Assembly (NCBI GenBank): GCA_021787665.1
Contig: JAJYLN010000002.1
Span: 124,001-188,000, forward strand
Direction: 5' to 3'
DNA: 64,000 nucleotides
From: a bacterium
GTDB taxonomy: Bacteria; JAMCPX01
How positions within the stretch are numbered: the first letter of the stretch is position 1; the number at the start of each line of letters is the position of its first letter. The position numbers were made by a program, and so were the translations under genes. The notes beneath the pieces are model-generated. The model ran no database searches. It was not told where the DNA came from and was given only the letters and a program-made list of their open reading frames with translations. Shown piece after piece: positions 2 to 45,622 of this stretch.

Positions 2-259
2 ATCCTGGCTGACGAAAAGGTGCAGGGCATCCTCGTCAATATATTCGGCGGCATCATGAAGTGCGACGTCATAGCGGACGGTATCATCGCCGCGGCAAAA
101 GAGGTCAACATCCGTGTTCCCCTTGTCGTACGGCTCGAAGGTACGAACGTGGAGCTCGGACAGGAGAAGCTCGCGAGGTCCGGGCTGAACATCATAACTG
201 CCAAGGGCATGGCGGAGGCAGCACAGAAAGTTGTCAGGGCAGTGAGAGGTGAGCTATGA
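2..259 (+). CDS. sucC: Succinyl-CoA synthetase beta subunit, C-terminal end (5' truncated by window)
   Basis: The reading frame is open from the window edge and ends at TGA 257-259. The 85 visible residues match the C-terminal end of the ADP/GDP-forming succinyl-CoA ligase beta subunit, with the motif NIFGGI near the start and RLEGTN about 25 residues later. These belong to the CoA-ligase domain that packs on the alpha subunit. With SucD it interconverts succinyl-CoA and succinate while making or using a nucleoside triphosphate. It overlaps sucD by four bases (ATGA), so translation is probably coupled. The N-terminal ATP-grasp domain lies outside the window. Confidence 0.95.
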
Positions 260-1203
260 GTATTTTCGTAGACAGGAATACACGGGTAATAGTGCAGGGC
301 ATAACCGGGAAAGACGGCATGTTCCATACGAAGCAGTGCCGCGATTACGGAACGAAGATCGTCGGCGGCGTGACCCCTGGAAAAGGCGGCACCGACGTGG
401 AAGGCATTCCGGTCTTTAACACGGTGGTTGATGCGGTTGTCGCCACGAGGCCGAATGCATCGATGATCTTTGTACCGCCCCCGTTTGCAGCGGACTCCAT
501 CATGGAGGCAGTTGACGCAGGCATCGAGCTCGTGGTGTGCATTACCGAGGGTATCCCCACGCTTGATATGCTGAAGGTCTCGTCCTATCTTAAGGGTAAG
601 AGGACACGGCTTATCGGTCCAAACTGTCCCGGTATCATCACCCCCGGGGAGGCGAAGCTGGGCATCATGCCAGCCAAGATCCATAGCCCCGGGAAGGTGG
701 GTATCATTTCGAGGAGTGGGACCCTGACATATGAGGCCGTTTACCAGATCACCGTACTTGGACTGGGCCAGTCTACCGCCCTCGGCATCGGCGGCGATCC
801 AATCATTGGGACCAGCTTCATCGATGCGCTAGAAGCGTTCAACGATGATCCAAAGACGGAAGCAATCATTATGATAGGGGAGATCGGAGGGACCGCGGAA
901 GACGATGCCGCTCGGTATATCAAGAAGTATGTTGAGAAGCCCGTGGTAGCATTCATAGCAGGTCAGACGGCACCAAAAGGCAAGAGGATGGGACATGCCG
1001 GGGCCATCATAACGGGCGGTAAGACAACGGCACAGGACAAGATCGAGGTGCTCGAGTCCGTGGGTATCAAGGTCTCGAGGAGCCCGGCTGAGATTGGACA
1101 AACCATGTACGATCTGCTAAAAAAAGTGAAGGCGAAAACAATGACGAAGAGAAAGACAGGTAAGGCTGCCAGGAAGTCAAAACCATCTGCCAAAAAAAGA
1201 TGA
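256..1203 (+). CDS. sucD: Succinyl-CoA synthetase alpha subunit
   Basis: This is the CoA-binding alpha subunit of succinyl-CoA ligase. The N-terminal Rossmann CoA-binding region contains QGITGKDG (residues 14-21), the middle has GPNCPGII, and the active-site phosphohistidine lies in GHAGAI at about residue 248. It starts inside the sucC stop codon. The protein has 315 residues, longer than the usual 290 or so; the excess is a Lys/Arg-rich C-terminal tail of about 25 residues after the conserved end. The following korDABC genes make succinyl-CoA from 2-oxoglutarate or the reverse, so the two enzymes form consecutive steps of an oxidative or reductive TCA cycle. Confidence 0.96.
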
Positions 1204-1223
1204 TCCGAAAGGGGAAAAAGTAA

Positions 1224-1457
1224 ATGGCTGAGGCGCAAACAGTGGAGAAAAAACCACAACAAAAACACAACATAAAAATTATAGAAGAACGCTGTAAGAC
1301 ATGTGAATTGTGTGTAGTTTACTGTCCAGAGGACGTTCTTGCCATGAAAGAGCTGGTCGTTACGGTTAAAAATCTAGACAAGTGTACCGGTTGTATGAGG
1401 TGCGAGCTGTTCTGTCCGGATTTTGCTATCTACGTCGACTTGCCGGAAAAACCTTAA
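1224..1457 (+). CDS. korD: 2-oxoglutarate:ferredoxin oxidoreductase, delta (ferredoxin-like) subunit
   Basis: A 77-residue protein with two [4Fe-4S] motifs: CKTCELCVVYCP (residues 24-35) and CTGCMRCELFCP (residues 54-65). This is the bacterial-type ferredoxin fold used as the delta subunit of four-subunit 2-oxoacid:ferredoxin oxidoreductases. It would carry electrons from the thiamine diphosphate centre of the beta subunit to free ferredoxin. It is 20 bases after sucD and directly before korA, a common gene order (D-A-B-C). A Shine-Dalgarno-like AAGGGGAAA precedes the ATG. It could also be a stand-alone ferredoxin, but the position makes the subunit role more likely. Confidence 0.9.
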   Translation: MAEAQTVEKKPQQKHNIKIIEERCKTCELCVVYCPEDVLAMKELVVTVKNLDKCTGCMRCELFCPDFAIYVDLPEKP

Positions 1458-1506
1458 GACAGTCGATTCTCACCTGAAAAACGATGAAAATTCTCGAGGA
1501 GGAATG

Positions 1507-2658
1507 ATGGAGAAAAAGGCTTTACTCATATCGGGCAATGAGTCATGTGTTGAGGGCGCCCTGTATGCCGGTGTGCAGTTTTATGCGGGCTATCCTATAA
1601 CACCTTCGTCCGAGATAGCAGAAGGGCTCGCCAAGAAATTACCGAAGTACGGCGGCGTTATGATACAGATGGAGGATGAGATTGCATCGATGGGTGCCAT
1701 TATCGGAGCTTCCCTTACAGGCAAGAAGTCCATGACCGCGACGAGCGGTCCGGGGTTTTCCCTCAAGCAGGAAAACCTCGGCTTCGCTTCTTTCAATGAG
1801 ATACCGTGTGTGATCGTCAATGTCATGAGAGGAGGACCGAGCACGGGTGCCCCGACCGGCCCCTCCCAAGGAGACGTGATGCAGGCACGGTGGGGTACGC
1901 ATGGGGATCACCCCATCGTGGCCCTTGCACCGAACTCTATCCCCGAGATATTTACAGAAACGGTCCGGGCGTTCAATATCTCGGAGAAGTACAGGATCCC
2001 GGTCGTGCTGCTGCTCGATGAGATCATAAGCCACATGAGAGAGAAGATAACCTTTCCGGAGAAGGGCGAGCTTGAAGTCATAGATCGCATGAAGCCGACC
2101 GTCCCGCCGGACCAGTACAAGCCGTTCGATGTATCCAACTCTCCCTTGCCCCTCGTTCCACCGATGGCGGCGTACGGGACAGGGTACCGGTTTCATGTTA
2201 CGGGACTGAACCACCGGACCGATGGCTTTCCCACGAACAACGGCGAGCTTATAGAAAAGGAGCTCCACCGTATTATGGGGAAGCTTGATCTCTACAAGAA
2301 AGACATGTTCAGGACCGAGGCGTACATGCTCGAGGACGCGGAGATAGGTATCGTGGCCTTCGGTTCTTCCGCGAGGGCAGCAAAGTATGCTGTGAATGAG
2401 TTGAGGAAGCAGGGTATCAAGGCGGGCATGTTGCGGTACATCACCCTATGGCCTTTCGAAGGCGCCGCTATCGAGATGCTGGCGCAGAAGGTCAAGTTCA
2501 TCGTTGTGCCGGAGCTCAATATGGGACAACTCATACTCGAGGTCGAGCGCGCCGCACAAGGCAGGACGAAGGTGTACGGTGTCAACAGGGTCAATATAGA
2601 GATTATCCACCCGCACGATATCATGGAAAAGGTAAAGGAGCTTTCACATGGCATTTGA
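1507..2658 (+). CDS. korA: 2-oxoglutarate:ferredoxin oxidoreductase, alpha subunit
   Basis: The 383-residue alpha subunit holds the pyrimidine-binding half of the thiamine diphosphate site. Visible family features are GYPITPSSEI near residue 27, the QMEDE motif near residue 55, and TATSGPGFSLK near residue 77. The enzyme converts 2-oxoglutarate, CoA and oxidised ferredoxin to succinyl-CoA and CO2, or runs in reverse. Two ATG codons stand in tandem at 1504 and 1507; AGGAGG at 1497-1502 is better spaced for 1507. The gene overlaps korB by 11 bases. Specificity for 2-oxoglutarate is inferred from sucCD next door; another 2-oxoacid cannot be excluded from sequence alone. Confidence 0.93.
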   Translation: MEKKALLISGNESCVEGALYAGVQFYAGYPITPSSEIAEGLAKKLPKYGGVMIQMEDEIASMGAIIGASLTGKKSMTATSGPGFSLKQENLGFASFNEIPCVIVNVMRGGPSTGAPTGPSQGDVMQARWGTHGDHPIVALAPNSIPEIFTETVRAFNISEKYRIPVVLLLDEIISHMREKITFPEKGELEVIDRMKPTVPPDQYKPFDVSNSPLPLVPPMAAYGTGYRFHVTGLNHRTDGFPTNNGELIEKELHRIMGKLDLYKKDMFRTEAYMLEDAEIGIVAFGSSARAAKYAVNELRKQGIKAGMLRYITLWPFEGAAIEMLAQKVKFIVVPELNMGQLILEVERAAQGRTKVYGVNRVNIEIIHPHDIMEKVKELSHGI

Positions 2659-3466
2659 ATATGAAAAGTATATACGGAAGGGCACCCTCCCTCATATATG
2701 GTGCCCGGGGTGCGGTCATGGCATCGTCATGAAGTCGCTCCTCAGGGCCATCGATGGACTGAAGCTCGACAAGAACGATATCGCTGTCGTGTCCGGCATC
2801 GGCTGTGCATCGCGTCTGCCGGGCTACCTCGACATGAACACGCTCCACACGACGCATGGCAGGGCTCTTGCGTTTGCGACCGGCATAAGGCTCGCCAACC
2901 CCAAACTCAAGGTCATCGTGGTGAGCGGCGACGGCGATGCTGCCGCGATAGGCGGAAACCATCTCATCCATGCCGCAAGGAGGAACATAGAGATCACGCT
3001 CATCGTATTCAATAACTCGATCTACGGTATGACCGGCGGGCAGGTCGCCCCGACGACGCCACTGGGCGCCATCGCCACGACCATGCCCTATGGCAACATA
3101 GACCCTCCGTTCGATCTCGTAAAGCTCGTGGAAGGAGCCGGCGCGACCTTCGTTGCGCGGACCACGTCGTACCACACGGCCCAATGCGAGCAGTTGTTCA
3201 AACAGGCGATCATGCATAAAGGTTTTTCGGTCGTCGACGTCATTGATGCGTGTCCGGTGCAGTACGGCAGGAGAAACAAGCCCAGGGAGGCGCCGGACAT
3301 GATGCAGATCCAGAAGGACAATTCGATACCGGTACAGTTGGCGCAGAAAAAAAAGCCCGAGGAACTCGTCGGAAAGATCATTACTGGTATCTTCGTCAAG
3401 AAGGAGCTGCCGTCCTATACCGATACGTACTACAACACCATTATACCCAGGGCCCAGGCCAAATAA
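2648..3466 (+). CDS. korB: 2-oxoglutarate:ferredoxin oxidoreductase, beta subunit
   Basis: The 272-residue beta subunit binds the diphosphate of thiamine diphosphate and a [4Fe-4S] cluster. WCPGCGHG near residue 18 supplies cluster cysteines, SGIGC follows near residue 47, and GDGDAAAIGGNH near residue 95 with NNSIYGMTGGQ is the Mg-ThDP motif. It starts 11 bases inside korA, so the two subunits are probably translationally coupled. It lacks the long extension of pyruvate:ferredoxin oxidoreductase beta subunits, in keeping with a Kor-type enzyme. Confidence 0.94.
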   Translation: MAFEYEKYIRKGTLPHIWCPGCGHGIVMKSLLRAIDGLKLDKNDIAVVSGIGCASRLPGYLDMNTLHTTHGRALAFATGIRLANPKLKVIVVSGDGDAAAIGGNHLIHAARRNIEITLIVFNNSIYGMTGGQVAPTTPLGAIATTMPYGNIDPPFDLVKLVEGAGATFVARTTSYHTAQCEQLFKQAIMHKGFSVVDVIDACPVQYGRRNKPREAPDMMQIQKDNSIPVQLAQKKKPEELVGKIITGIFVKKELPSYTDTYYNTIIPRAQAK

Positions 3467-3485
3467 AGAGAGATAGGAGTGATCA

Positions 3486-4037
3486 ATGAGTAAAAACACA
3501 GAGATCAGGCTAAGCGGCGAAGGTGGTCAGGGGCTTATCCTTGCGGGCGTTATCCTTGCATCAGCGGCCCTTCTGGAGGGAAAGAATGCGGCACAGTCGC
3601 AGTACTATGGCCCGGAGTCAAGGGGCGGTATAAGCAAATCCGAGGTCGTGATCAGCGACGGCGAGATCATCTATCCCGAAGTTGCTGACCCGGACCTCGT
3701 GCTGGTGCTCTCGGACGTGGCGAGTATTCCTTATACCAAGGACGTCCGGCGCGACGATACCCTCGTGATATTTGATTCCGGTACCGTCAAGAAGTTCCCG
3801 GACCTCAAGCATGGCAGGATCTATAAATTGCCGTTCACGATGACCGCGCACGACAAGCTGGGGAAGCCCTTTATAGCGAACATCATAGCCCTGGGCACGA
3901 TCGTGGGTCTGATAGGCGTTGTCAGCAAGGAATCGATAGAGAAGGCGGTTCTCGCAAGGGTACCGAAGGGCACCGAGGAACTGAACAAGACGGCCTTGCT
4001 GGAGGGCTTCGAGCTCGCAAAGACTATAAAAAAATAG
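3486..4037 (+). CDS. korC: 2-oxoglutarate:ferredoxin oxidoreductase, gamma subunit
   Basis: A 183-residue gamma subunit of the 2-oxoacid:acceptor oxidoreductase family. It begins with the typical RLSGEGGQGLILAG segment (residues 8-21), followed by QSQYYGPESRGG near residue 38. This domain binds CoA and closes over the active site. It is preceded by the Shine-Dalgarno-like GATAGGAG and lies 19 bases after korB. With korD, korA and korB it completes a four-subunit enzyme. The second oxidoreductase in this window instead has this domain fused to its alpha subunit (39476-41332). Confidence 0.94.
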   Translation: MSKNTEIRLSGEGGQGLILAGVILASAALLEGKNAAQSQYYGPESRGGISKSEVVISDGEIIYPEVADPDLVLVLSDVASIPYTKDVRRDDTLVIFDSGTVKKFPDLKHGRIYKLPFTMTAHDKLGKPFIANIIALGTIVGLIGVVSKESIEKAVLARVPKGTEELNKTALLEGFELAKTIKK

Positions 4038-6850: not shown

Positions 6851-9129
<2,279 letters not shown>

Positions 9130-36391: not shown

Positions 36392-36407
36392 TGGTATAGT
36401 AATTGCA
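36392..36407 (+). promoter_or_regulatory. Candidate sigma-54 promoter upstream of the second oxidoreductase operon
   Basis: TGG (36392-36394) and TTGCA (36403-36407) fit the -24/-12 consensus, with exactly ten bases between the GG and GC pairs. Initiation would fall near 36418, before a 32-codon ORF and the GltD-like gene. The 36288-36461 stretch is otherwise gene-free; a TATAAT at 36357-36362 lacks a good -35 box. Confidence 0.45.
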
Positions 36408-36461
36408 GGATATACATCATGCAGGGTGTTAACATTTATAGACGGTGCCGAGGGAGAAATC

Positions 36462-36560
36462 ATGCCAAGTACTACCAAACGACGTGTTACGTTTATTTGC
36501 GGGGTCAATCAGGAGAAGCACGCCGGGGAGGCCGTCCTCGAAGGGGTATTCCGTTACTAA
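36462..36560 (+). CDS. Possible 32-residue leader or truncated gene
   Basis: ATG 36462 follows GAGGGAG with good spacing, giving a 32-residue peptide that ends at TAA 36558-36560. Its middle (FICGVNQEKHAGEAVLEG) faintly recalls the start of carboxypeptidase/aspartoacylase-like proteins, which have GxHGxE at this point; the zinc ligands are not conserved. It could be a truncated gene or a leader peptide of the operon downstream. Bases 36561-36655 contain nothing else I can see. Confidence 0.3.
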   Translation: MPSTTKRRVTFICGVNQEKHAGEAVLEGVFRY

Positions 36561-36655
36561 CTTGACTATCGGCATCATGCTTGCTTTCGAACAGTCGGAA
36601 TGATACATTCACTAGTACATGTACGTTATGCGAAAAAATGGGGTGGTAGGATACT

Positions 36656-38449
36656 ATGAAAGAGGAAAAGACCTATCTGTCATCTGAGAGGGAGTCCTTC
36701 GATCATCTTACCGCGGCGAGGCGGGTCGAGAGGACTGTTTTCTTCTCGACCAACAAGAAAGATTTCGCGTGGATGAGGGAGAACGTTCCCTGCCAGACGG
36801 TGTGTCCTGCGCTGACCAATGTCCCCGGCTATATATATGCAGACTATCAGGATAGGTACGGCAGGTCATACGAGATCAACCGCTATGTCAACATACTACC
36901 CGGCGTACTCGGTAGGATCTGTTCGAGACCGTGTGAGCTCGCGTGCAGACATGGGTGGCCGGGCTTTGGCGAGCCGGTCGCGATATGCCACCTGAAAAGG
37001 GTCGCGAGCGATTTCAAGCCCGAGGGTCACCGCATAGAGGAGTTCATGTTCGGACCTTCGGGAAAGAAGGTCGCAATCATCGGATCCGGTCCTGCCGGAC
37101 TCGGTGCGGCTCACGACCTCGCCATATTCGGCCACAAAGTGACCATATACGAGGCACTCGATCGTCCGGGCGGCATGCTCAGATACGGCATACCCGAGTT
37201 CAGGCTCCCGAGGAGCATCCTCGATGTAGAGATCTCGAATATCCTGAGGCTCGGGGTAGACCTGCATGCAGGGGTCCGCGTGGGCAAAGACATAAAACTC
37301 GAAGAGCTCCTCCGGTCCCATGATGCCGTCCTGCTCGCGGCCGGAACGTACAGGCCGAACAGACTGGGGATAAAAGGCGAGGTGACGGACCACGTCTATT
37401 CCGGACTCGACTTCATGATGGACGTCAATGCCGGCAAGGATATGTTCGTGGGCAGTAAGGTCCTTGTCATAGGAGGCGGGTATACGGCGATGGACTGTGC
37501 GAGGGCCTCCCTGCGACTCGGCGCTAAAAGGGTCATCATAAATATCCTTACTACGGAGGATTACATAACCGTTAACAGGGATGAGCTCAGCGAGGTCAAG
37601 ACCGAGAACGTTGAGATACGGGGGCTCGTCTCAATCGAGCATATCGATCGCTCTGGGGCCGGTCTGGCCGTGAGGTTCAGGAGAAACAGGCTCGGCGGGT
37701 ACGGCGAGAAGGGCGAGAGGCTCGCCGTACCCATAAAAGGGTCAGATTTTACCGACGATACGGAGAGCGTGATTTACGCCATCGGGCAGAGGCCTGAGAC
37801 AGAGTTTATGAAAGACATCGCACCGATTGGGAAAAACGGCATGGTGGAGTTCGACAGGACCAGCTCCGCGACGGGAGTCAGGGGGCTTTTTGTTGCAGGC
37901 GATTTCGGGACCGGCGCCTCCACCGTGATAGAGTCTGTAGCGTCCGGACGCGGGGCTGCATGGTCCATCGACCGGTTCCTGATGGATCGTACCAGGAGGA
38001 AGAAGGTCGTGAGGTTCGAGAAGTATACCGAGCTGCAGAGAGAGCGCGCGTGGGATTTCATCCCGAGACAGACCATGCCTACGTTGCCGGTGAAGGAGCG
38101 CATCGATCAGGCGGAGGTCGAGATGGGTCTCAGCATGACATTCGGCAAAGAGGAGGCAAAGCGGTGCTACCTGTGCTACCTGAAGTTCGAGATAGATGTC
38201 GCGAGGTGCATTTACTGCCGCTACTGCATAGACGTCTGCCCCACGAACTGCATCCACACGACCAAAGACGTCATGACAGAGGAGGATGGACGAGAGGAGC
38301 TGGCAACTACGGAAAACTGGAACGAGGTAAGCGCGATCGTTATTGATAACAACAATTGCATACGGTGCGGGAACTGCAAGAAGGTATGTCCTGTCGAGTG
38401 TATAGATGTCGTGAAAGTCGAACATATAGAGCAGGACGTGGAGGCCTGA
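36656..38449 (+). CDS. GltD-like NAD(P)-linked flavoprotein with N- and C-terminal iron-sulfur motifs
   Basis: A 597-residue protein. The N-terminal region has the cysteine pattern of glutamate-synthase small subunits (CQTVCPALTNVPGY near 46, CSRPCELACRHG near 85). The FAD motif IIGSGPAGLG is near 142 and the NAD(P) motif VIGGGYTAMDCARA near 270. The C-terminus adds two [4Fe-4S] motifs, CIYCRYCIDVCP near 523 and CIRCGNCKKVCP near 570. It should move electrons between NAD(P)H and ferredoxin-type centres. Downstream are a flavoprotein and both catalytic subunits of a 2-oxoacid oxidoreductase, so it is probably their electron-transfer subunit rather than a glutamate synthase. Confidence 0.88.
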   Translation: MKEEKTYLSSERESFDHLTAARRVERTVFFSTNKKDFAWMRENVPCQTVCPALTNVPGYIYADYQDRYGRSYEINRYVNILPGVLGRICSRPCELACRHGWPGFGEPVAICHLKRVASDFKPEGHRIEEFMFGPSGKKVAIIGSGPAGLGAAHDLAIFGHKVTIYEALDRPGGMLRYGIPEFRLPRSILDVEISNILRLGVDLHAGVRVGKDIKLEELLRSHDAVLLAAGTYRPNRLGIKGEVTDHVYSGLDFMMDVNAGKDMFVGSKVLVIGGGYTAMDCARASLRLGAKRVIINILTTEDYITVNRDELSEVKTENVEIRGLVSIEHIDRSGAGLAVRFRRNRLGGYGEKGERLAVPIKGSDFTDDTESVIYAIGQRPETEFMKDIAPIGKNGMVEFDRTSSATGVRGLFVAGDFGTGASTVIESVASGRGAAWSIDRFLMDRTRRKKVVRFEKYTELQRERAWDFIPRQTMPTLPVKERIDQAEVEMGLSMTFGKEEAKRCYLCYLKFEIDVARCIYCRYCIDVCPTNCIHTTKDVMTEEDGREELATTENWNEVSAIVIDNNNCIRCGNCKKVCPVECIDVVKVEHIEQDVEA

Positions 38450-38451
38450 GC

Positions 38452-39486
38452 ATGGCGAAGAAAGCCCTGAAATACGTTATCATCGGCGACGGGCATGCGG
38501 GTAATAGTGCCGCAGAGACATTGAGGAGGGGCAGTCCGGACGCCGATATAGCGATCATATCTGCGAAGCCGACCCACTACTTCGATCACAGCATGCTCGC
38601 ATCTTTCCTTCTGGATAAGAAAGACATAACCTCGTTATACCTTTATCCGTATACATGGTATAAGGAACATACTATCAGGTTGAGGCTCAACCAGACCGTT
38701 ATCAGGGTAGATCCGGGCAAACACGAGCTCATGCTTGCACACAACGAGCGTATGCATTATGACAGGCTCCTTGTTGCGTCCGGAGCAAAACCGAAGCTGC
38801 CTGAGTCCCTGTCGAGGTACAAGGGCTTGCTGACTATGTTTACAGATGCTGTCGATGCAATGAAACTCAGGGAGCGGCTCGGGAAGCTGAAGCACGTCAC
38901 GATGGTCGGAGGAGATTGTATCGGGCTGCATCTCGCTGGTTCTATGCTAAAGCTTGGGAAATCAATTACTTGTATATTAAATGAATATAGTTTCTGGCCT
39001 CTTGAATATGATACATCGGTAAAGGATAAATTGATAGAGGGCCTTAAAAAGAAGCACATCGAGGTACTAGCGGACGATATAACAACGGAGATTGTTAAGG
39101 AAGGAACAGGTCTTACTGTCATGACAAAGAACGGCAAAATCATAAAAACGGACCTTGCTTTCCTGACATCAGGCATGATCCCGAATATAGATTTTCTCGA
39201 TGGAAGCGGGATAGATGTCCAGACCGGCATACTCGTGGATGAATACATGCATACCAGTGCCCAGGACGTTTGGGCCGCAGGAGAATGTGCGACTGTGTAT
39301 TATCCGGAACTAAAGGATTACCGGCAATCGACCGGCGAAGTCAATGCAAAGATGCTCGGAAACATATCTGCGAGGAACATGCTCGATGAAAAAAAGGCCG
39401 TAAGCCTTGCCGAGCCTGGGAAGATCACTATCGGGGGCGAGGATTTTATCACCTATGGGTGGAAAGGGTTCTCCATTGACGTATGA
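38452..39486 (+). CDS. FAD-dependent pyridine nucleotide-disulfide-type oxidoreductase
   Basis: A 344-residue two-dinucleotide-binding flavoprotein. FAD motif VIIGDGHAGNSAA is at 9-21, the second Rossmann motif near 150 is VGGDCIGLHLA, and the C-terminal FAD motif DVWAAGECA is near 272. No redox disulfide is present, as in ferredoxin and rubredoxin reductases or NADH oxidases. It starts two bases after the GltD-like gene and overlaps the fused alpha-gamma gene by 11 bases. The central part (about 38940-39250) is AT-richer than its flanks. The electron partner is unknown. Confidence 0.85.
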   Translation: MAKKALKYVIIGDGHAGNSAAETLRRGSPDADIAIISAKPTHYFDHSMLASFLLDKKDITSLYLYPYTWYKEHTIRLRLNQTVIRVDPGKHELMLAHNERMHYDRLLVASGAKPKLPESLSRYKGLLTMFTDAVDAMKLRERLGKLKHVTMVGGDCIGLHLAGSMLKLGKSITCILNEYSFWPLEYDTSVKDKLIEGLKKKHIEVLADDITTEIVKEGTGLTVMTKNGKIIKTDLAFLTSGMIPNIDFLDGSGIDVQTGILVDEYMHTSAQDVWAAGECATVYYPELKDYRQSTGEVNAKMLGNISARNMLDEKKAVSLAEPGKITIGGEDFITYGWKGFSIDV

Positions 39487-41332
39487 AAAAAGCCTGACAA
39501 TCGAGATATGCGGCAGTTCCGGTGACAGGGCGCTTGCAGCGGGCGAGATACTGATAAAGACCCTGTCTGATATCGGCTACCACGTCATCTCGTTCGATGC
39601 CTACCCTGCAGAGATCCGGGGGTTCGGAAAGACTGTTGCCCACATGAGAGCGGGCAGGGAATTTATGCTCAGCCTGAGCCGCAAGGTCGACATCCTGATA
39701 TCGCTCAGCGACCGATATGCTATCGAGCAGCTCAGGAACTTGAACGATGAAGGGGTGGTACTTTTTGATAACAGGCCGAACAACGTTGTTTATGAAGACC
39801 TCCCCCATGATGCAGATCAGACCGAGGCGCACAGGCTTGGCCCCGGCGTATATACTGAAAAAGAAGGATGGAAGACTCCGACGAAGGACGATGTCAGTAT
39901 TGCAGGGCATCTCGGTCCGGGCATGTATTTGTACGGCATACCGCTATACCAGCTCAGTCAGAAGACGACGAATGAATCCAGGTCTCGGAACATCGTGGTT
40001 CTGGGGGCGGTTGCTGCACTGTTCAACGTACCGGAGAAGGAATTTATCAATAACCTCACCGCAAAGCTCGGGAAAAAAGACAAGAGTATAGAGTCGATCA
40101 TTGCCGCATTCGAAGAAGGTCGCCGGTACGTGATCGAAAACATCGTGAAGCTCGATCCGTACAGCTTCGAGAAGCTCTCCGTTGATAGGAAAAGCTATAG
40201 GCTGATGGACGGGAACAAGGCGGTCGCACAGGCAGCCATCGATATGGGATGCAAGCTGTACGCGGGATATCCCATCACGCCGGCCACGAAGATCATGGAG
40301 ATACTGTCCGATGAGCTGCCCCGGCACGGAGGTGTCGTCGTACAGACCGAGGACGAGATATCCGCGATAGGGCATGTGACCGGGGCGGGGTTTGCCGGCG
40401 TAAGGGCGATGACCGCGACGTCAGGACCGGGCTTCTGTCTCATGACAGAGTTCATCGGGTACAATGTGATGTCCGAGAATCCGATCGTCGTCGTCGATAG
40501 TCAGAGGGGAGGGCCGGCTACCGGGCTTCCGACGAAGACAGAGCAGTCCGACCTCAATCATGCGCTGTTTGCGGGAAACGGCGATACGCCGAGAATCGTC
40601 GTCGCTCCTACGAGCGCCAAGGAATGTTACCAGTGGACAGCCGAGGCTTTCTACCTTGCGGAGAAATACCAGACGCCGGTCATCGTGCTCATGGACCTGT
40701 TCCTGTCGTTGTCGGTGAGGAACGTTTCTCTTGATCCCATCCCGGACTACAAGAAGGGCGGCAATAAATTCCCGACTCAGGAGGACATGAAGCTCTATCT
40801 CCGACAGAAGATAACTGACGACGGCGTATCCCCGCGCGCACTGCCGGGACTGGAAAACGGGTATCAGGCTGTCTCAGGCCTCGAGCAGAACGAGTATGGG
40901 ACCCCGGTCTATGACGAACTTTCGCATACCAGGATGACAGAGAAGAGGTTCAGGAAGATACAGACCGCCCTTGAGAACGATGTCCCGCTGCCCCAGAGGA
41001 TCGGCGTGTCCGGAAGGGTAAAAGTCGGCGTCATATCATGGGGATCCACGACAGGTGCGGTCATGGATGCGCTTGACAGTATTTTGAAACAAGGCAAGAG
41101 CGTGGCTATGCTCAAGGTCATCGTGATAAACCCGCTCAGAGAAAAGGAGATACAGGCGTTCTTTGATGACTGCGAGAAAGTGCTGGTGCCGGAGCTCAAC
41201 TACGAAGGACAGTTCGCAAACTGGCTTTCCATGCATTTTCAGAAGAAGTTATACCGGTATAACAAGGTAGCGGCAAGACCCATCACGCACGACGAGATAG
41301 AGGAAGAGATCAACAGGCTGTTGGAGGAATAG
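39476..41332 (+). CDS. 2-oxoacid:ferredoxin oxidoreductase, fused gamma-alpha subunit
   Basis: About 619 residues. Residues 1-190 are the gamma (CoA-binding) domain, although the usual GEGGQG motif is altered to CGSSGDRALAAGE. From about 235 the alpha subunit follows, with GYPITPATK, QTEDE and TATSGPGF. The fusion contrasts with the separate korA and korC at 1507-4037. The start is uncertain: TTG 39476 follows GGAAAGG, and ATG 39455 lies in frame further up. Substrate not determined: another 2-oxoglutarate, an indolepyruvate-like or branched 2-oxoacid are possible. Confidence 0.9.
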   Translation: MTYEKSLTIEICGSSGDRALAAGEILIKTLSDIGYHVISFDAYPAEIRGFGKTVAHMRAGREFMLSLSRKVDILISLSDRYAIEQLRNLNDEGVVLFDNRPNNVVYEDLPHDADQTEAHRLGPGVYTEKEGWKTPTKDDVSIAGHLGPGMYLYGIPLYQLSQKTTNESRSRNIVVLGAVAALFNVPEKEFINNLTAKLGKKDKSIESIIAAFEEGRRYVIENIVKLDPYSFEKLSVDRKSYRLMDGNKAVAQAAIDMGCKLYAGYPITPATKIMEILSDELPRHGGVVVQTEDEISAIGHVTGAGFAGVRAMTATSGPGFCLMTEFIGYNVMSENPIVVVDSQRGGPATGLPTKTEQSDLNHALFAGNGDTPRIVVAPTSAKECYQWTAEAFYLAEKYQTPVIVLMDLFLSLSVRNVSLDPIPDYKKGGNKFPTQEDMKLYLRQKITDDGVSPRALPGLENGYQAVSGLEQNEYGTPVYDELSHTRMTEKRFRKIQTALENDVPLPQRIGVSGRVKVGVISWGSTTGAVMDALDSILKQGKSVAMLKVIVINPLREKEIQAFFDDCEKVLVPELNYEGQFANWLSMHFQKKLYRYNKVAARPITHDEIEEEINRLLEE

Positions 41333-41335
41333 ATT

Positions 41336-42151
41336 ATGGACCACTATGTAAAACCAGAAGTGTATTATCCGGACGAGGACATCCGGCAGGTCAGGGAGAA
41401 GGGCATCCTCCAGTACAGGTCTGAGCGGCTCCCTACCTGGTGCCCCGGGTGTGGTTATTTTGGCATAGAGACGGCTTTGACCAATGCGCTGAGCAGCCTC
41501 GGCATAATGCCCAAAGACCTGATCATCGTTTCCGGCATCGGCTGTGTAGGCAGGTATCCCTTTTTTGTCAGGGGGTATGGCATGCACACCCTTCACGGCA
41601 GGGCCCTGCCGGTGGCGTCCGGCGCGAAGCTCGCAAGGCAGGAGCTGACCGTCCTCGCTTTGATCGGCGACGGCGACGGACTCGGTATCGGTGCGGGACA
41701 TCTGCCCCATACGATACGGAGGAACCCGGACATCACGTGCGTGCTCTTCGATAATGCGATATATGGCCTCACCAAGGGACAGACGAGTCCCATGACGCCT
41801 CAGCACCAGGTAACCAGGTCGCACCCGCAGGGTAACCCGGACCCCAGGATGAACCCTGTGCTCCTCGCGCTCTCGTATGGCGCGACGTATGTCGCACGCG
41901 GGTTTGCCGGTGCTCCTGATGAGATGCAGAACTTGTACGAAGAGGGCATAAAGCACAAGGGATTCTCTTTTATACATATCATGAGCCCCTGTGTGACGTT
42001 CGACAAGGTCAATTATCTCTACGAGAACCTGCGGAAGTGGGTAAGGCCCCTGCCGCAGGGCTATGACAGCGGCAGCCTTGACCGGGCATTCGATGTCGCC
42101 CGGGGAACGGAGGTATTTACCGGGGTCATTTACAACAAGCCTTTCCTCTGA
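41336..42151 (+). CDS. 2-oxoacid:ferredoxin oxidoreductase, beta subunit
   Basis: A 271-residue thiamine-diphosphate-binding subunit: WCPGCGYFG near 35, SGIGCVGRYP near 65, and GDGDGLGIGAGH with DNAIYGLTKGQ near 117-143. It pairs with the fused gamma-alpha subunit three bases upstream. It ends the operon; the next gene converges 13 bases later. Compared with KorB at 2648 it has a longer N-terminal lead, which supports a separate complex rather than a duplicate. Confidence 0.92.
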   Translation: MDHYVKPEVYYPDEDIRQVREKGILQYRSERLPTWCPGCGYFGIETALTNALSSLGIMPKDLIIVSGIGCVGRYPFFVRGYGMHTLHGRALPVASGAKLARQELTVLALIGDGDGLGIGAGHLPHTIRRNPDITCVLFDNAIYGLTKGQTSPMTPQHQVTRSHPQGNPDPRMNPVLLALSYGATYVARGFAGAPDEMQNLYEEGIKHKGFSFIHIMSPCVTFDKVNYLYENLRKWVRPLPQGYDSGSLDRAFDVARGTEVFTGVIYNKPFL

Positions 42152-42164
42152 TCCGGCCGCGGAC

Positions 42165-43820
42165 TTACTCGTCCATCTGGAAATACTGCTTGAGCCTCTT
42201 TCGTATGGGCTGCGGGATGGGGATATCGAGATCGATCAGCCGTGCCTCGTATTTCCTGAACGACTCAAAGTGCCTCGATGTCCTTATCAGAATATTGATG
42301 ACCTCCCTCATCGAGGCCTCCATCTCTTTCCGATAATGTTCCTTGCTGTCGAGCAGCGCCTCGTAGCTCCGTATGAGGCGGTGGTGGACCGGCCTGCAGA
42401 TGGCCCGGTAGAATATGAACCTGCCGGTCACCGTGGATTGAAAGTTCTGCTCCAGGATAGCCTTTTCGACGTCCTTGAGGTTGATGACGTCCACGATCTC
42501 GACCTGGTACTGGTCGCTGCCGAACTCCCGAAGCAGCCTGCTGAACTCTTCTATCCTGTTTTCTATGGCACGGTCCGCATCGTCGACGGAAGGCCTGTCG
42601 ACATAGTAGACCACGATATCGATGTCCGAGCCCTTTTCGGCCATACCGAAGAGTGTCGAGCCCACCAGATCGAAAGCGATGGGACGTCCCCTGTCCTCCA
42701 TCGTGAGTGCTACCCTCTTCAGGAACTTTATTCGCTCGTTCGTTTCCTTCGACTCGTATTGCCTGAAAAAGTGCTTTACTGCATTGAAAAGCTTTATCTC
42801 CTCGACATGCGAGACCGGGACAGGCTTCGATGGGTGGTCGTGGATGTTCGTCCTGAGGCCGTCGTACCTCGCCTCGTCCAGTACGACTGTCTTCAGCCCT
42901 CCGTTGAAGGGGATGTAGTCCACGATATCGTACGGCCTGTACTCCTCTACGCGTTTGAGGATGACTTTCTGGACGCTCCTGCCCTCAATGGTCACCTTCG
43001 CGTAGTAGCCGCCGTCCATGAACTTGCCCTCTATTGTTTCCACGGTCCCGAAATTCGACGGGTTCACGAAGAACGTTCTGTTCGTGTATTCGCAGCCATA
43101 GTCCTCGTGCACATGGCCGCTCAGTACCAGGAGCGGCGGCACTTCTTCTATGGCCCTTTCCATGCCGGTGCTGCCTATGGAGCCGTAGGAAGATATGCGG
43201 TCGAAATGTCCGTACGGAGGCTGGTGGCAGACAATAATGTCCGGCTTCTCGCGCATGAGGAATTCGAACGGCTCTGAGTAGTCGTTGCTTTCAATGAACC
43301 GCACCATGCCCTCTTCCGGGATGCCCGCGGTCCTCGTGTTTGCGCCGCCATAGCCAGCTATTCTCAGTCCCTCGAACTCGAAGACCTTCTTGTGGATCTG
43401 CCGATGGCCGATCGCGGTACCGGACAGGTCCATGTCATAGTTGCCCGGCAGGACGATGATCGGTGCCTTCTTTACCATCGAGAAGAGGTGCTCCATCTGT
43501 TCGTATTTCTCGTTCATCACATACCGTGCCCTTTCGGAGAGCTTCAGGTATTCCTCGGCCCTGGTTTTGAGATCAACGCGCAGTCCGTCCTTGATAAGCG
43601 TGCGCACATAGTCTTCGATCACCATACCCGGCGCGTCTTTCTGCCTCATCAGGTGGAAGGAGTCCTGCAGCTCGAGGAACCTCATTCCGGTGTTGGGAGA
43701 GTAGAAGGGCGAGTATATCAGATCCCCGCTCACGATGTAGAGGTCCGCGAACGTGACCTCCAGCAGCTTCTCGAGCTGAGCCCGTGCCCCATGAACGTCC
43801 GTTACGTATATGATCTCCAT
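42165..43820 (-). CDS. Metallophosphoesterase fused to a nucleotidyltransferase domain
   Basis: A 551-residue protein. Residues 1-290 are a calcineurin-like phosphoesterase with Asp8 and His10 (DVHG), Asp33 (SGDL), Asn127 (GNYD), His199 (CHQPP) and His236/His238 (GHVH). Residues about 340-480 hold a Pol-beta-type nucleotidyltransferase: Gly387-Ser388 and Asp399/Asp401 (GSDIDI), third acid probably Glu441. The last 70 residues are helical and charged. I know no common family with both activities on one chain. It is divergent from a receiver-DUF4388 gene. The ATG lies seven bases after a perfect TATAAT, without Shine-Dalgarno. Confidence 0.85.
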   Translation of the reverse strand: MEIIYVTDVHGARAQLEKLLEVTFADLYIVSGDLIYSPFYSPNTGMRFLELQDSFHLMRQKDAPGMVIEDYVRTLIKDGLRVDLKTRAEEYLKLSERARYVMNEKYEQMEHLFSMVKKAPIIVLPGNYDMDLSGTAIGHRQIHKKVFEFEGLRIAGYGGANTRTAGIPEEGMVRFIESNDYSEPFEFLMREKPDIIVCHQPPYGHFDRISSYGSIGSTGMERAIEEVPPLLVLSGHVHEDYGCEYTNRTFFVNPSNFGTVETIEGKFMDGGYYAKVTIEGRSVQKVILKRVEEYRPYDIVDYIPFNGGLKTVVLDEARYDGLRTNIHDHPSKPVPVSHVEEIKLFNAVKHFFRQYESKETNERIKFLKRVALTMEDRGRPIAFDLVGSTLFGMAEKGSDIDIVVYYVDRPSVDDADRAIENRIEEFSRLLREFGSDQYQVEIVDVINLKDVEKAILEQNFQSTVTGRFIFYRAICRPVHHRLIRSYEALLDSKEHYRKEMEASMREVINILIRTSRHFESFRKYEARLIDLDIPIPQPIRKRLKQYFQMDE

Positions 43821-43942: not shown

Positions 43943-45622
43943 ATGAGAAAGCACCAGCTTTTAATAGTTGCCTGGCTGCCTGATATTACGAGCAGCATCA
44001 ATCAGATACTGAAGGATAATAACTATGTGTCCGACAGTGTATCGACGCCGATAGAGGCCATGAATGCGGTCGGCAAGACGACGTACAAGGTTGTTGTTCT
44101 CGATAGTCTGTTGCCGGGGGTAAACGGGTACCAGCTCGTCAAACGTCTGAGGAACGAGCCCCACGGTGAGCATACGAAGTTCATCGTCCTTATGCGCGAT
44201 CTGCCGAAGGATAAGTATGAAGAGGTAAACAGACGCTGGGGTACCTATGCCCTGTTGAAGAAACCACTGAAATCTGAGGAACTGCTGCGGGTCATTCAGG
44301 ACGCAGAGGCTTGCGATCTGCCGAGCGAAAAATTGGAGATACGAAAGTCGGAGTCGGTAGAGGCTATCCTTTCCGAACTTGCAAGTGGTCTTTGGACCGG
44401 AAAAACGACCTGTTACGGTAAGAACGGTGCCGTAAAGGAGATTTACTGGGACAGGGGCAATCCTGTCTTCGCGATGAGCAGCGATGAGAACGAGAGACTC
44501 GATCTGTGGCTCTTGAGAACGGGGCAGGTGACGGAAAGTGTCATGACGTCAGCCTACGAAATCATGGACAAGCGGAGCATAAGGCTCGAGGACGCTCTCA
44601 TAATGGTGGGAGCCCTCAGCGAAGACAGTCTTGAAGCGGCTGTTTCCGACAACATGATGGCCATGATTGTCGACATGTTTTCATGGGACGGTATGGAGTA
44701 CACAAAGGAAGAAAAAGATGCGGGCACGAAGGTGCTCGCTTCGATAAAGGACCCGTTCCCCATCATCCTGTTCGAGGGCATAAAGAAAAAAACGGACATC
44801 GAGGGCTTGAGGAGCAGATTGGAATCAGAAGGTGAGATCGCGAGCTTCATACCGGACAACATCTTGAAGGTAGAGGACTTCAAATTCCCTCACGCCTATA
44901 ACAGACTCATCAACCTGATCAACGAGAAGAGAACGATAAACGAATTGATCGCCAAGAGCGGCCTGAGCCAGGACGACGCATACCGGTTCCTGTACACGTT
45001 GTTTCTCTTGAAACTTGTAAGGCTGAGCAGACCCGATAAAAAAGAGGCCAGCGCCGTGATCAGTATGCCCACGATACAGAGTGACGCCAGCAAGAAGACC
45101 AGGTTTATGGGTACCCTGCACGATATCTCGATCGTTGAACTCATCCAGATGCTCGAGCTCAACAGGAAGTCCGGCACGCTCCAGATCAACGATGCCAACG
45201 AGATCGGATGGATCCTGTTCAACAGGGGCAGAATCGTGGACGCCTATTACGGAGAACTGACACGACTCACTGCAGTCTACAGGATATTGTTCCTTACCGA
45301 AGGTGAGTTCGAGATAACATTCAAGGACATAGTCGGTGAATCGAGGATAGATACGGATGTTCAGGTATTATTGATGGAAGGACTGAGGATCGTCGACGAG
45401 GTCAAGAGGATTGAGCCGATATTTGGGGGACTCAAGAAGAGCTACATCGTCAATACGTCGCACACGTTCAATACCGAAGAGGAGAAGGAAGAGCTGATGC
45501 GCGTATTCAATGGCAGGAACGATCTCGTCACCTCGGCGTTCATGCTTAACCCGGACCCGCAGATAGGGTTCGACATTATGAGTTCACTGTTAAAAGACAA
45601 CGTGATTAAGGAAGTGAAGTGA
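43943..45622 (+). CDS. Atypical receiver domain protein with two DUF4388 domains
   Basis: A 559-residue soluble protein. Residues 1-120 are a receiver fold with the phosphorylatable Asp54 (VLDSLLPG) and Lys106 (LLKKP). The acidic pair after strand 1 is missing (IVAWLPD in place of a DD pair) and the switch Thr is Met84, so normal phosphorylation is doubtful. A DUF4388 (PATAN) domain covers about 135-260, a winged-helix-like segment about 318-365, and a second DUF4388 about 390-475. Such proteins occur in gliding and delta-proteobacterial signalling. No kinase gene is adjacent. Confidence 0.85.
   Translation: MRKHQLLIVAWLPDITSSINQILKDNNYVSDSVSTPIEAMNAVGKTTYKVVVLDSLLPGVNGYQLVKRLRNEPHGEHTKFIVLMRDLPKDKYEEVNRRWGTYALLKKPLKSEELLRVIQDAEACDLPSEKLEIRKSESVEAILSELASGLWTGKTTCYGKNGAVKEIYWDRGNPVFAMSSDENERLDLWLLRTGQVTESVMTSAYEIMDKRSIRLEDALIMVGALSEDSLEAAVSDNMMAMIVDMFSWDGMEYTKEEKDAGTKVLASIKDPFPIILFEGIKKKTDIEGLRSRLESEGEIASFIPDNILKVEDFKFPHAYNRLINLINEKRTINELIAKSGLSQDDAYRFLYTLFLLKLVRLSRPDKKEASAVISMPTIQSDASKKTRFMGTLHDISIVELIQMLELNRKSGTLQINDANEIGWILFNRGRIVDAYYGELTRLTAVYRILFLTEGEFEITFKDIVGESRIDTDVQVLLMEGLRIVDEVKRIEPIFGGLKKSYIVNTSHTFNTEEEKEELMRVFNGRNDLVTSAFMLNPDPQIGFDIMSSLLKDNVIKEVK

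Follow-up and report, generated by a model that had tools for sequence, protein, structure and literature searches.

The four-gene block and its conservation

The DNA analysed here, a 64,000-nucleotide (nt) stretch of the bacterial contig JAJYLN010000002.1 (below, the window), carries on its + strand a block of four codirectional genes, hereafter the cassette. In order, these encode a GltD-like iron-sulfur (Fe-S) flavoprotein, a flavin adenine dinucleotide (FAD) oxidoreductase, a fused gamma-alpha subunit of a 2-oxoacid:acceptor oxidoreductase, and its beta subunit. From sequence comparisons, we think it likely that the four products form one complex, a 2-oxoglutarate oxidoreductase (coenzyme A (CoA)-acylating) using nicotinamide adenine dinucleotide or its phosphate, i.e., a 2-oxoglutarate:NAD(P)+ oxidoreductase. 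The genes, their order and conservation, their motifs, clade, and neighbours were read directly. The features are as follows.

36656..38449, +: GltD/NfnB-like Fe-S flavoprotein; 597 residues; Pfam Fer4_20, Pyr_redox_2, and a C-terminal Fer4 dicluster (Fer4_10/16)
38162..38176, +: RCYLC motif of the GltD-like protein; Cys pair in 40/40 sequences from four-gene cassettes
38207..38401, +: C-terminal 2[4Fe-4S] ferredoxin-like domain of the GltD-like protein; Cys 518, 521, 524, 532, 568, 571, 574, 578, and 582
38452..39486, +: PadH/AIF/rubredoxin-reductase-like FAD protein; 344 residues; Pfam Pyr_redox_2, 154 bits
38908..38916, +: GGD, residues 153-155 of the FAD protein; Asp at the second Gly of the NAD-binding GxGxxG loop
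39476..41332, +: fused gamma-alpha subunit, 2-oxoacid:acceptor oxidoreductase; POR, POR_N, and PFOR_II domains; TIGR03710, 546.8 bits (cut-off 482.75)
41336..42151, +: beta subunit, thiamine diphosphate and [4Fe-4S]; TIGR02177, 266.1 bits (cut-off 261.9); Cys 36, 39, 70, and 219

The open reading frames (ORFs) and domain matches agree with an initial annotation of this DNA as to the four genes, their order, the Fe-S motifs at both ends of the GltD-like flavoprotein, and the small gaps or overlaps between genes. That annotation had set the left edge, and thus a gene start, at 36392; this start is ruled out by two stop codons in the frame, and the GltD-like gene begins at ATG 36656. The gamma-alpha gene most likely begins at TTG 39476, judging from the same TTG in five relatives and the GGAAAGG-like ribosome site before it; a second in-frame TTG lies at 39407. 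With the start at 39476, the gene overlaps the FAD gene by 11 nt, and the remaining gaps are 2 and 3 nt. The gene for a 235-residue ABC-transporter ATPase ends 369 bases upstream of the cassette, and a convergent gene lies immediately downstream (42165-43820, -), coding for a calcineurin-like phosphoesterase fused to a nucleotidyltransferase-like domain (Metallophos + NTP_transf_2); the unit is therefore taken to be the four genes. Beyond it, at 43943-45622 (+), a response regulator receiver domain is fused to a DUF4388 domain. A promoter and terminator scan upstream of the cassette gave nothing over chance level.

A search for the same gene order in other genomes, which the initial annotation had proposed, found it with invariant linkage: rather than being scattered, the homologues keep the four-gene order wherever a cassette locus was read, up to the contig ends. 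After duplicates were removed, the cassette was present in about 43 distinct genomes by our own count, its genes usually overlapping or spaced by a few nt. For the phylum of the window, the genome set contains nine members, which belong to a single family; the FAD gene is present in eight of them, and the ninth is ~82% complete. The loci read from this family show the same order at ~85% identity, some being broken by contig ends. A genome scan with the gamma-alpha subunit gave 21 loci, 20 of them in cassettes and one a distant match (L076), whose record titles name Desulfotignum, Desulfobacterales, Rhodospirillales, Kiloniellales, Rhodobiaceae, Rhodocyclales, Burkholderiales, Myxococcales, and unclassified bacteria. 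At least 22 of 297 genomes of a single proteobacterial family have the FAD gene, and the order was intact in all 20 regions fetched, to contig limits; in a class-level survey of 369 genomes, the seed genome alone had it. Both counts are lower bounds, as the surveys scored five to seven candidates per genome. This patchy presence suggests horizontal spread. A fifth conserved cassette gene was not found at the loci read.

The cassette gamma-alpha subunits form one clade (SH-aLRT 99), separate from that (SH-aLRT 100) of GltD-gamma-alpha-beta operons, which have three genes, lack the FAD gene, and were found at 20/20 second-score-class loci read in one proteobacterial family (L158-L177). Two loci have peculiarities of their own. 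The beta gene of L056 (a record of G001; 7876-8689) appears frameshifted, being matched by two overlapping tblastn pieces, which could reflect an assembly error, and in L120 (13787-15412, -) a second GltD-like protein (PRK12771, 772 bits) adjoins a four-gene cassette.

The oxidoreductase core and its probable substrate

The core is a 2-oxoacid:acceptor oxidoreductase (OFOR) of the fused gamma-alpha type: its alpha and beta parts exceed the curated cut-offs of TIGR03710 and TIGR02177, and the YPITP motif and the beta [4Fe-4S] cysteines are conserved. The closest solved core is PDB 6n2n, of which chain A matches gamma-alpha at E 4.3e-139 (profile) and chain B matches beta at E 3.5e-70. The glycine-rich motif of the gamma domain, GSSGDR in the window, is indeed altered, as had been noticed initially, and this holds across the family (G-[SA]-[AS]-G-[DE]-[GR]).

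Two pocket positions bear on the substrate. Beta Arg73, at the place of Lys49 in StOFOR1, is found in 33/33 sequences, and alpha Leu474, at the place of Asp468, in 37/37 where aligned; both residues are identical in 6n2n. Lys49-beta and Asp468-alpha influence the use of 2-oxoglutarate by StOFOR1 (PMC5020499). The other pocket residues (YPITP, Arg349, beta Leu145, and Lys147) are retained. As to neighbours, four relatives have aconitase just upstream of the cassette with one 100-residue gene intervening, and in one proteobacterium (L126/L068) the cassette is within a tricarboxylic acid (TCA) cycle operon, sucA-sucB-lpd-[cassette]-AFG1. Pocket residues and these neighbours together make 2-oxoglutarate the best-supported candidate substrate.

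Several points weigh against that assignment, which depends on homology and neighbours. The K49R mutant of StOFOR1 favoured pyruvate (PMC5020499), and Arg73 by itself therefore leaves the substrate unsettled. The copy in the window has no TCA neighbour, aconitase lying elsewhere on the contig, and most proteobacterial loci have unrelated identified neighbours, e.g., relA/spoT and dnaJ. A 730-residue downstream neighbour at eight proteobacterial loci was considered as isocitrate dehydrogenase and rejected; it is a RelA/SpoT protein and has no bearing on the substrate.

The gene between aconitase and the cassette codes for a Cys-rich protein of ~100 residues (L039:4301-4603, L037:3781-4089, L057:2185-2493, and L058:2872-3174); for the L039 copy, searches of Pfam and NCBIfam gave no hit at the thresholds applied. 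The gene was not found at the locus in the window, where a 32-codon ORF (36462-36560), considered as a candidate remnant, shows by eye no likeness to the 100-residue gene in the aconitase-GltD interval of the relatives.

The genome of the window has citrate synthase and aconitase, and a canonical korDABC set adjoins sucD. Within the window (256-4037), sucD is followed by korD-korA-korB-korC (1224-4037), a canonical ferredoxin-type 2-oxoglutarate oxidoreductase. The coexistence with korDABC that had been pointed out initially is thus real, and there are apparently two 2-oxoglutarate oxidoreductases in this genome. The further suggestion of a different substrate is not supported, as pocket and neighbours indicate 2-oxoglutarate, which is also the annotated substrate of korDABC; the difference more likely lies in the electron acceptor. 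A search for sucA did not find it in the genome of the window or in G003, G004, and G047; it is present in eight other cassette genomes.

The two flavoproteins and the probable path of electrons

The GltD-like protein consists of an N-terminal Fe-S domain, an FAD domain with an embedded NAD(P) fold, a linker, and a C-terminal 2[4Fe-4S] domain. Its AlphaFold2 (AF2) model (pLDDT 86.4) superposes over nearly its full length on the large subunits of NfnABC and StnABC (VIA Z 37-40), and next on NfnB, GltD, and DPD. The NAD(P) loop (GxGxTAxDCAR) is retained, and the six N-terminal cysteines, the RCYLC pair, and the nine cysteines of the C-terminal domain are invariant in 40 sequences. The Cys pair, which reads RCLNC in 20/20 three-gene relatives, has moved: it is N-terminal in NfnB and DPD and follows the FAD/NAD domain in the GltD-like protein, the NfnB stretch aligning with the N-terminus. 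The cassette operon has no gene for a delta ferredoxin, and the C-terminal 2[4Fe-4S] domain probably replaces the missing subunit.

With its invariant linkage, C-terminal ferredoxin domain, and intact nucleotide fold, the GltD-like protein probably wires this second 2-oxoacid oxidoreductase to NAD(P)(H), much as was initially proposed. An ordinary ferredoxin-dependent 2-oxoglutarate oxidoreductase, co-transcribed with a separate NAD(P)H:ferredoxin reductase and joined to it in no single complex, is unlikely. The core does hold every part of a two-subunit OFOR that uses free ferredoxin, e.g., StOFOR (PMC5020499), but the gene order is invariant, the genes overlap, the GltD-like protein bears a permanent ferredoxin domain, and a 2-oxoglutarate:NADP+ oxidoreductase with a GltD-family subunit is documented (PMC10134865). 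As to the nucleotide, the NADP motif YRR of NfnB is absent, being replaced by I-L-T in the family of the window and by I-R-T in most others. By the criterion used for DsrL (PMC7596348), the missing motif argues for NAD+ over NADP+, most clearly in the family of the window; against this, proteobacterial cassettes and the three-gene relatives retain one Arg of the YRR region.

The second flavoprotein has a fold resembling AIF and the rubredoxin and putidaredoxin reductases (AF2 pLDDT 91.1; Foldseek TMq 0.79-0.87 to 9li3, 1q1r, and AIF). Its FAD motifs are retained, whereas the second Gly of the GxGxxG NAD loop is Asp in 40/40 sequences (D155; GGD rather than GGG), and W182 and P183, part of an (F)WP 26 residues past GGD, are likewise found in 40/40. 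The NAD-binding PDB relatives displayed have GGG at the D155 site, as does the sole non-cassette homologue in the fetched loci. Given GGD in every copy examined, this PadH-like protein probably does not bind NAD(H) in the usual way and would not be a second NAD(P) enzyme. Of the two proteins initially described as NAD(P)-linked, the description thus suits the GltD-like one, with its intact fold, and not the separate FAD protein.

PadH is, jointly with HcaD, the top NCBIfam family of the FAD protein, which raises the idea that the cassette encodes an oxidoreductase related to PadEFGHI of aromatic degradation, with NAD+ as acceptor and phenylglyoxylate or another aryl-2-oxoacid as substrate. We rejected this as extremely improbable. 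The scores fall far below the NCBIfam equivalog cut-offs (PadG 50.8 against 700 bits, PadH 148.5 against 475, and PadI 32.1 against 700), and the FAD protein is shorter than PadH (344 residues and 416 positions, respectively). Furthermore, gamma and delta are not separate genes, the pocket is of the 2-oxoglutarate type, and there are no aromatic-degradation genes among the identified neighbours.

The initial annotation had further suggested electron bifurcation through the two flavins. In such a scheme, whether bifurcation or confurcation, the FAD of the GltD-like protein would split the electrons of NAD(P)H: one would drive reductive carboxylation of succinyl-CoA at the core, and the second would pass to the FAD of the PadH-like protein and a higher-potential acceptor. 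Two flavoproteins are conserved in all copies, the best superpositions of the GltD-like protein are on subunits of the bifurcating NfnABC and StnABC, the Arg of NfnB that contacts FAD N5 (R201) is conserved as R183, and an NAD-free second flavin could be a dedicated one-electron acceptor. However, that Arg is also present in StnC and is thus not discriminating. In NfnB the FAD-proximal cluster has a Glu ligand, whereas in StnC this place is taken by Lys or Cys, and the protein has reportedly lost the ability to bifurcate (PMC10482914); the cassette protein has Lys114 at this position in 40/40 sequences, like StnC. The other features of NfnAB also differ, I-L-T or I-R-T standing for YRR and the partner being a Pyr_redox_2 protein that is not NfnA-like. 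The GltD-like domain of StnABC is not its bifurcating part, the cassette lacks a HydBC-like bifurcating module, and in one genome it is found inside the oxidative sucAB-lpd operon. Moreover, with 2-oxoglutarate at about -0.5 V and NAD+ at -0.32 V, the oxidation runs downhill without any need for bifurcation; the reverse reaction with NADH alone would need it. Bifurcation is not supported, and we judge this scheme very unlikely.

Proposed reaction and comparison with known systems

The structure models cover single chains, and we infer the assembly, substrate, electron path, nucleotide, and direction of the proposed 2-oxoglutarate:NAD(P)+ oxidoreductase. Its gamma-alpha/beta core, like 6n2n, would bind thiamine diphosphate, split 2-oxoglutarate, and yield succinyl-CoA, the electrons exiting by way of the [4Fe-4S] cluster of beta. 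In place of the delta ferredoxin, the GltD-like protein would offer its C-terminal 2[4Fe-4S] domain, and electrons would pass on through its N-terminal Fe-S domain and FAD to NAD(P)+ without free ferredoxin; in the lineage of the window, NAD+ would be the likelier partner. The net direction would most likely be oxidative, making the complex an O2-independent, NAD-linked counterpart of the 2-oxoglutarate dehydrogenase complex.

Note that so simple a wire leaves the extra flavoprotein unaccounted for, which tells against it. Having an FAD site without the usual NAD loop, the PadH-like protein would most likely be a bound electron-transfer or structural flavoprotein, or else an outlet to another acceptor. 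As a bolder version, it might be a dedicated NAD-free flavin site through which the complex reaches a third redox partner (a quinone, a further ferredoxin, or some other acceptor), such that one enzyme couples NAD(H), low-potential electrons, and the CO2-fixing or -releasing chemistry of 2-oxoglutarate, possibly with bifurcation of a non-NfnAB kind; we regard this as quite unlikely.

The 2-oxoglutarate step and its electron carrier largely set whether the TCA cycle runs oxidatively or reductively. If the proposal is correct, a cassette of patchy distribution but constant make-up, which ties a ferredoxin-type core to NAD(P), would offer an O2-independent, NAD-linked alternative to the 2-oxoglutarate dehydrogenase complex; one genome has it within a sucAB-lpd operon, and it also occurs in lineages where no sucA was detected. 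The ever-present flavoprotein, altered at its NAD site, poses a concrete and testable puzzle about electron handling in such complexes, and there is a caution for genome-based accounts of carbon metabolism, namely that korAB-like genes should not all be taken as ferredoxin-dependent.

Among known systems, PadEFGHI resembles the cassette in combining an OFOR core with an FAD subunit from the superfamily of the cassette FAD protein (NCBIfam PadH). Its FAD subunit is annotated as NADH-dependent, whereas the NAD loop of the cassette protein is altered; its gamma and delta are separate subunits, and to our knowledge it has no GltD-like subunit. NfnABC and StnABC, the best full-length structural matches of the GltD-like protein, the latter sharing Lys at the proximal-cluster position, have a HydBC-like module in place of the tie to an OFOR core. 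OGOR (6n2n/6n2o), which we take to be from Magnetococcus marinus, is the closest solved core and has the same Arg/Leu pocket; its listed chains make up a two-subunit core without an NAD(P)-linked subunit, unlike the cassette. For these structures, PMC12137691 cites Chen et al. 2019.

DsrL, an NAD(P)H:acceptor oxidoreductase of dissimilatory sulfur metabolism (PMC7596348), has the same domain order as the GltD-like protein: N-terminal Fe-S, FAD/NAD(P), a linker of ~100 residues, and C-terminal 2[4Fe-4S]. They differ in that the partner of DsrL is DsrAB and that of the GltD-like protein is the OFOR core, and the latter has the RCxxC pair in its linker region. The DsrL authors noticed and left out DsrL-like genes linked to OFOR genes, and absence of such linkage is a criterion for DsrL (PMC7596348); the GltD-like gene is linked in every cassette.

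A close functional parallel is found in Azoarcus evansii. From this organism, Ebenau-Jehle, Boll and Fuchs reportedly described a 2-oxoglutarate:NADP+ oxidoreductase (KGOR) in 2003. The enzyme is referred to in PMC8163825 and PMC10134865, the latter of which, citing it, includes a 2-oxoglutarate:NADP+ oxidoreductase subunit in the GltD/NfnB/DsrL family. The cassette has the A. evansii-type arrangement, a GltD-like gene sharing its operon with the fused gamma-alpha and the beta gene, and would likewise be a pyridine-nucleotide-coupled 2-oxoglutarate oxidoreductase with a subunit of that family. The three-gene operons may, in our view, be the A. evansii KGOR. From these, the cassette is distinguished by the PadH-like gene between GltD and gamma-alpha, by low identity (~29% for gamma-alpha and ~34% for the GltD-like protein), by its YRR region, and by its pocket (Arg73/Leu474 versus Lys/Thr). 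The principle of an NAD(P)-coupled 2-oxoglutarate oxidoreductase with a GltD-family subunit is thus already known; what is new, within the reach of these tools, is the four-gene form, with a gamma-alpha clade of its own and a broad distribution, together with the conserved flavoprotein whose NAD loop is altered.

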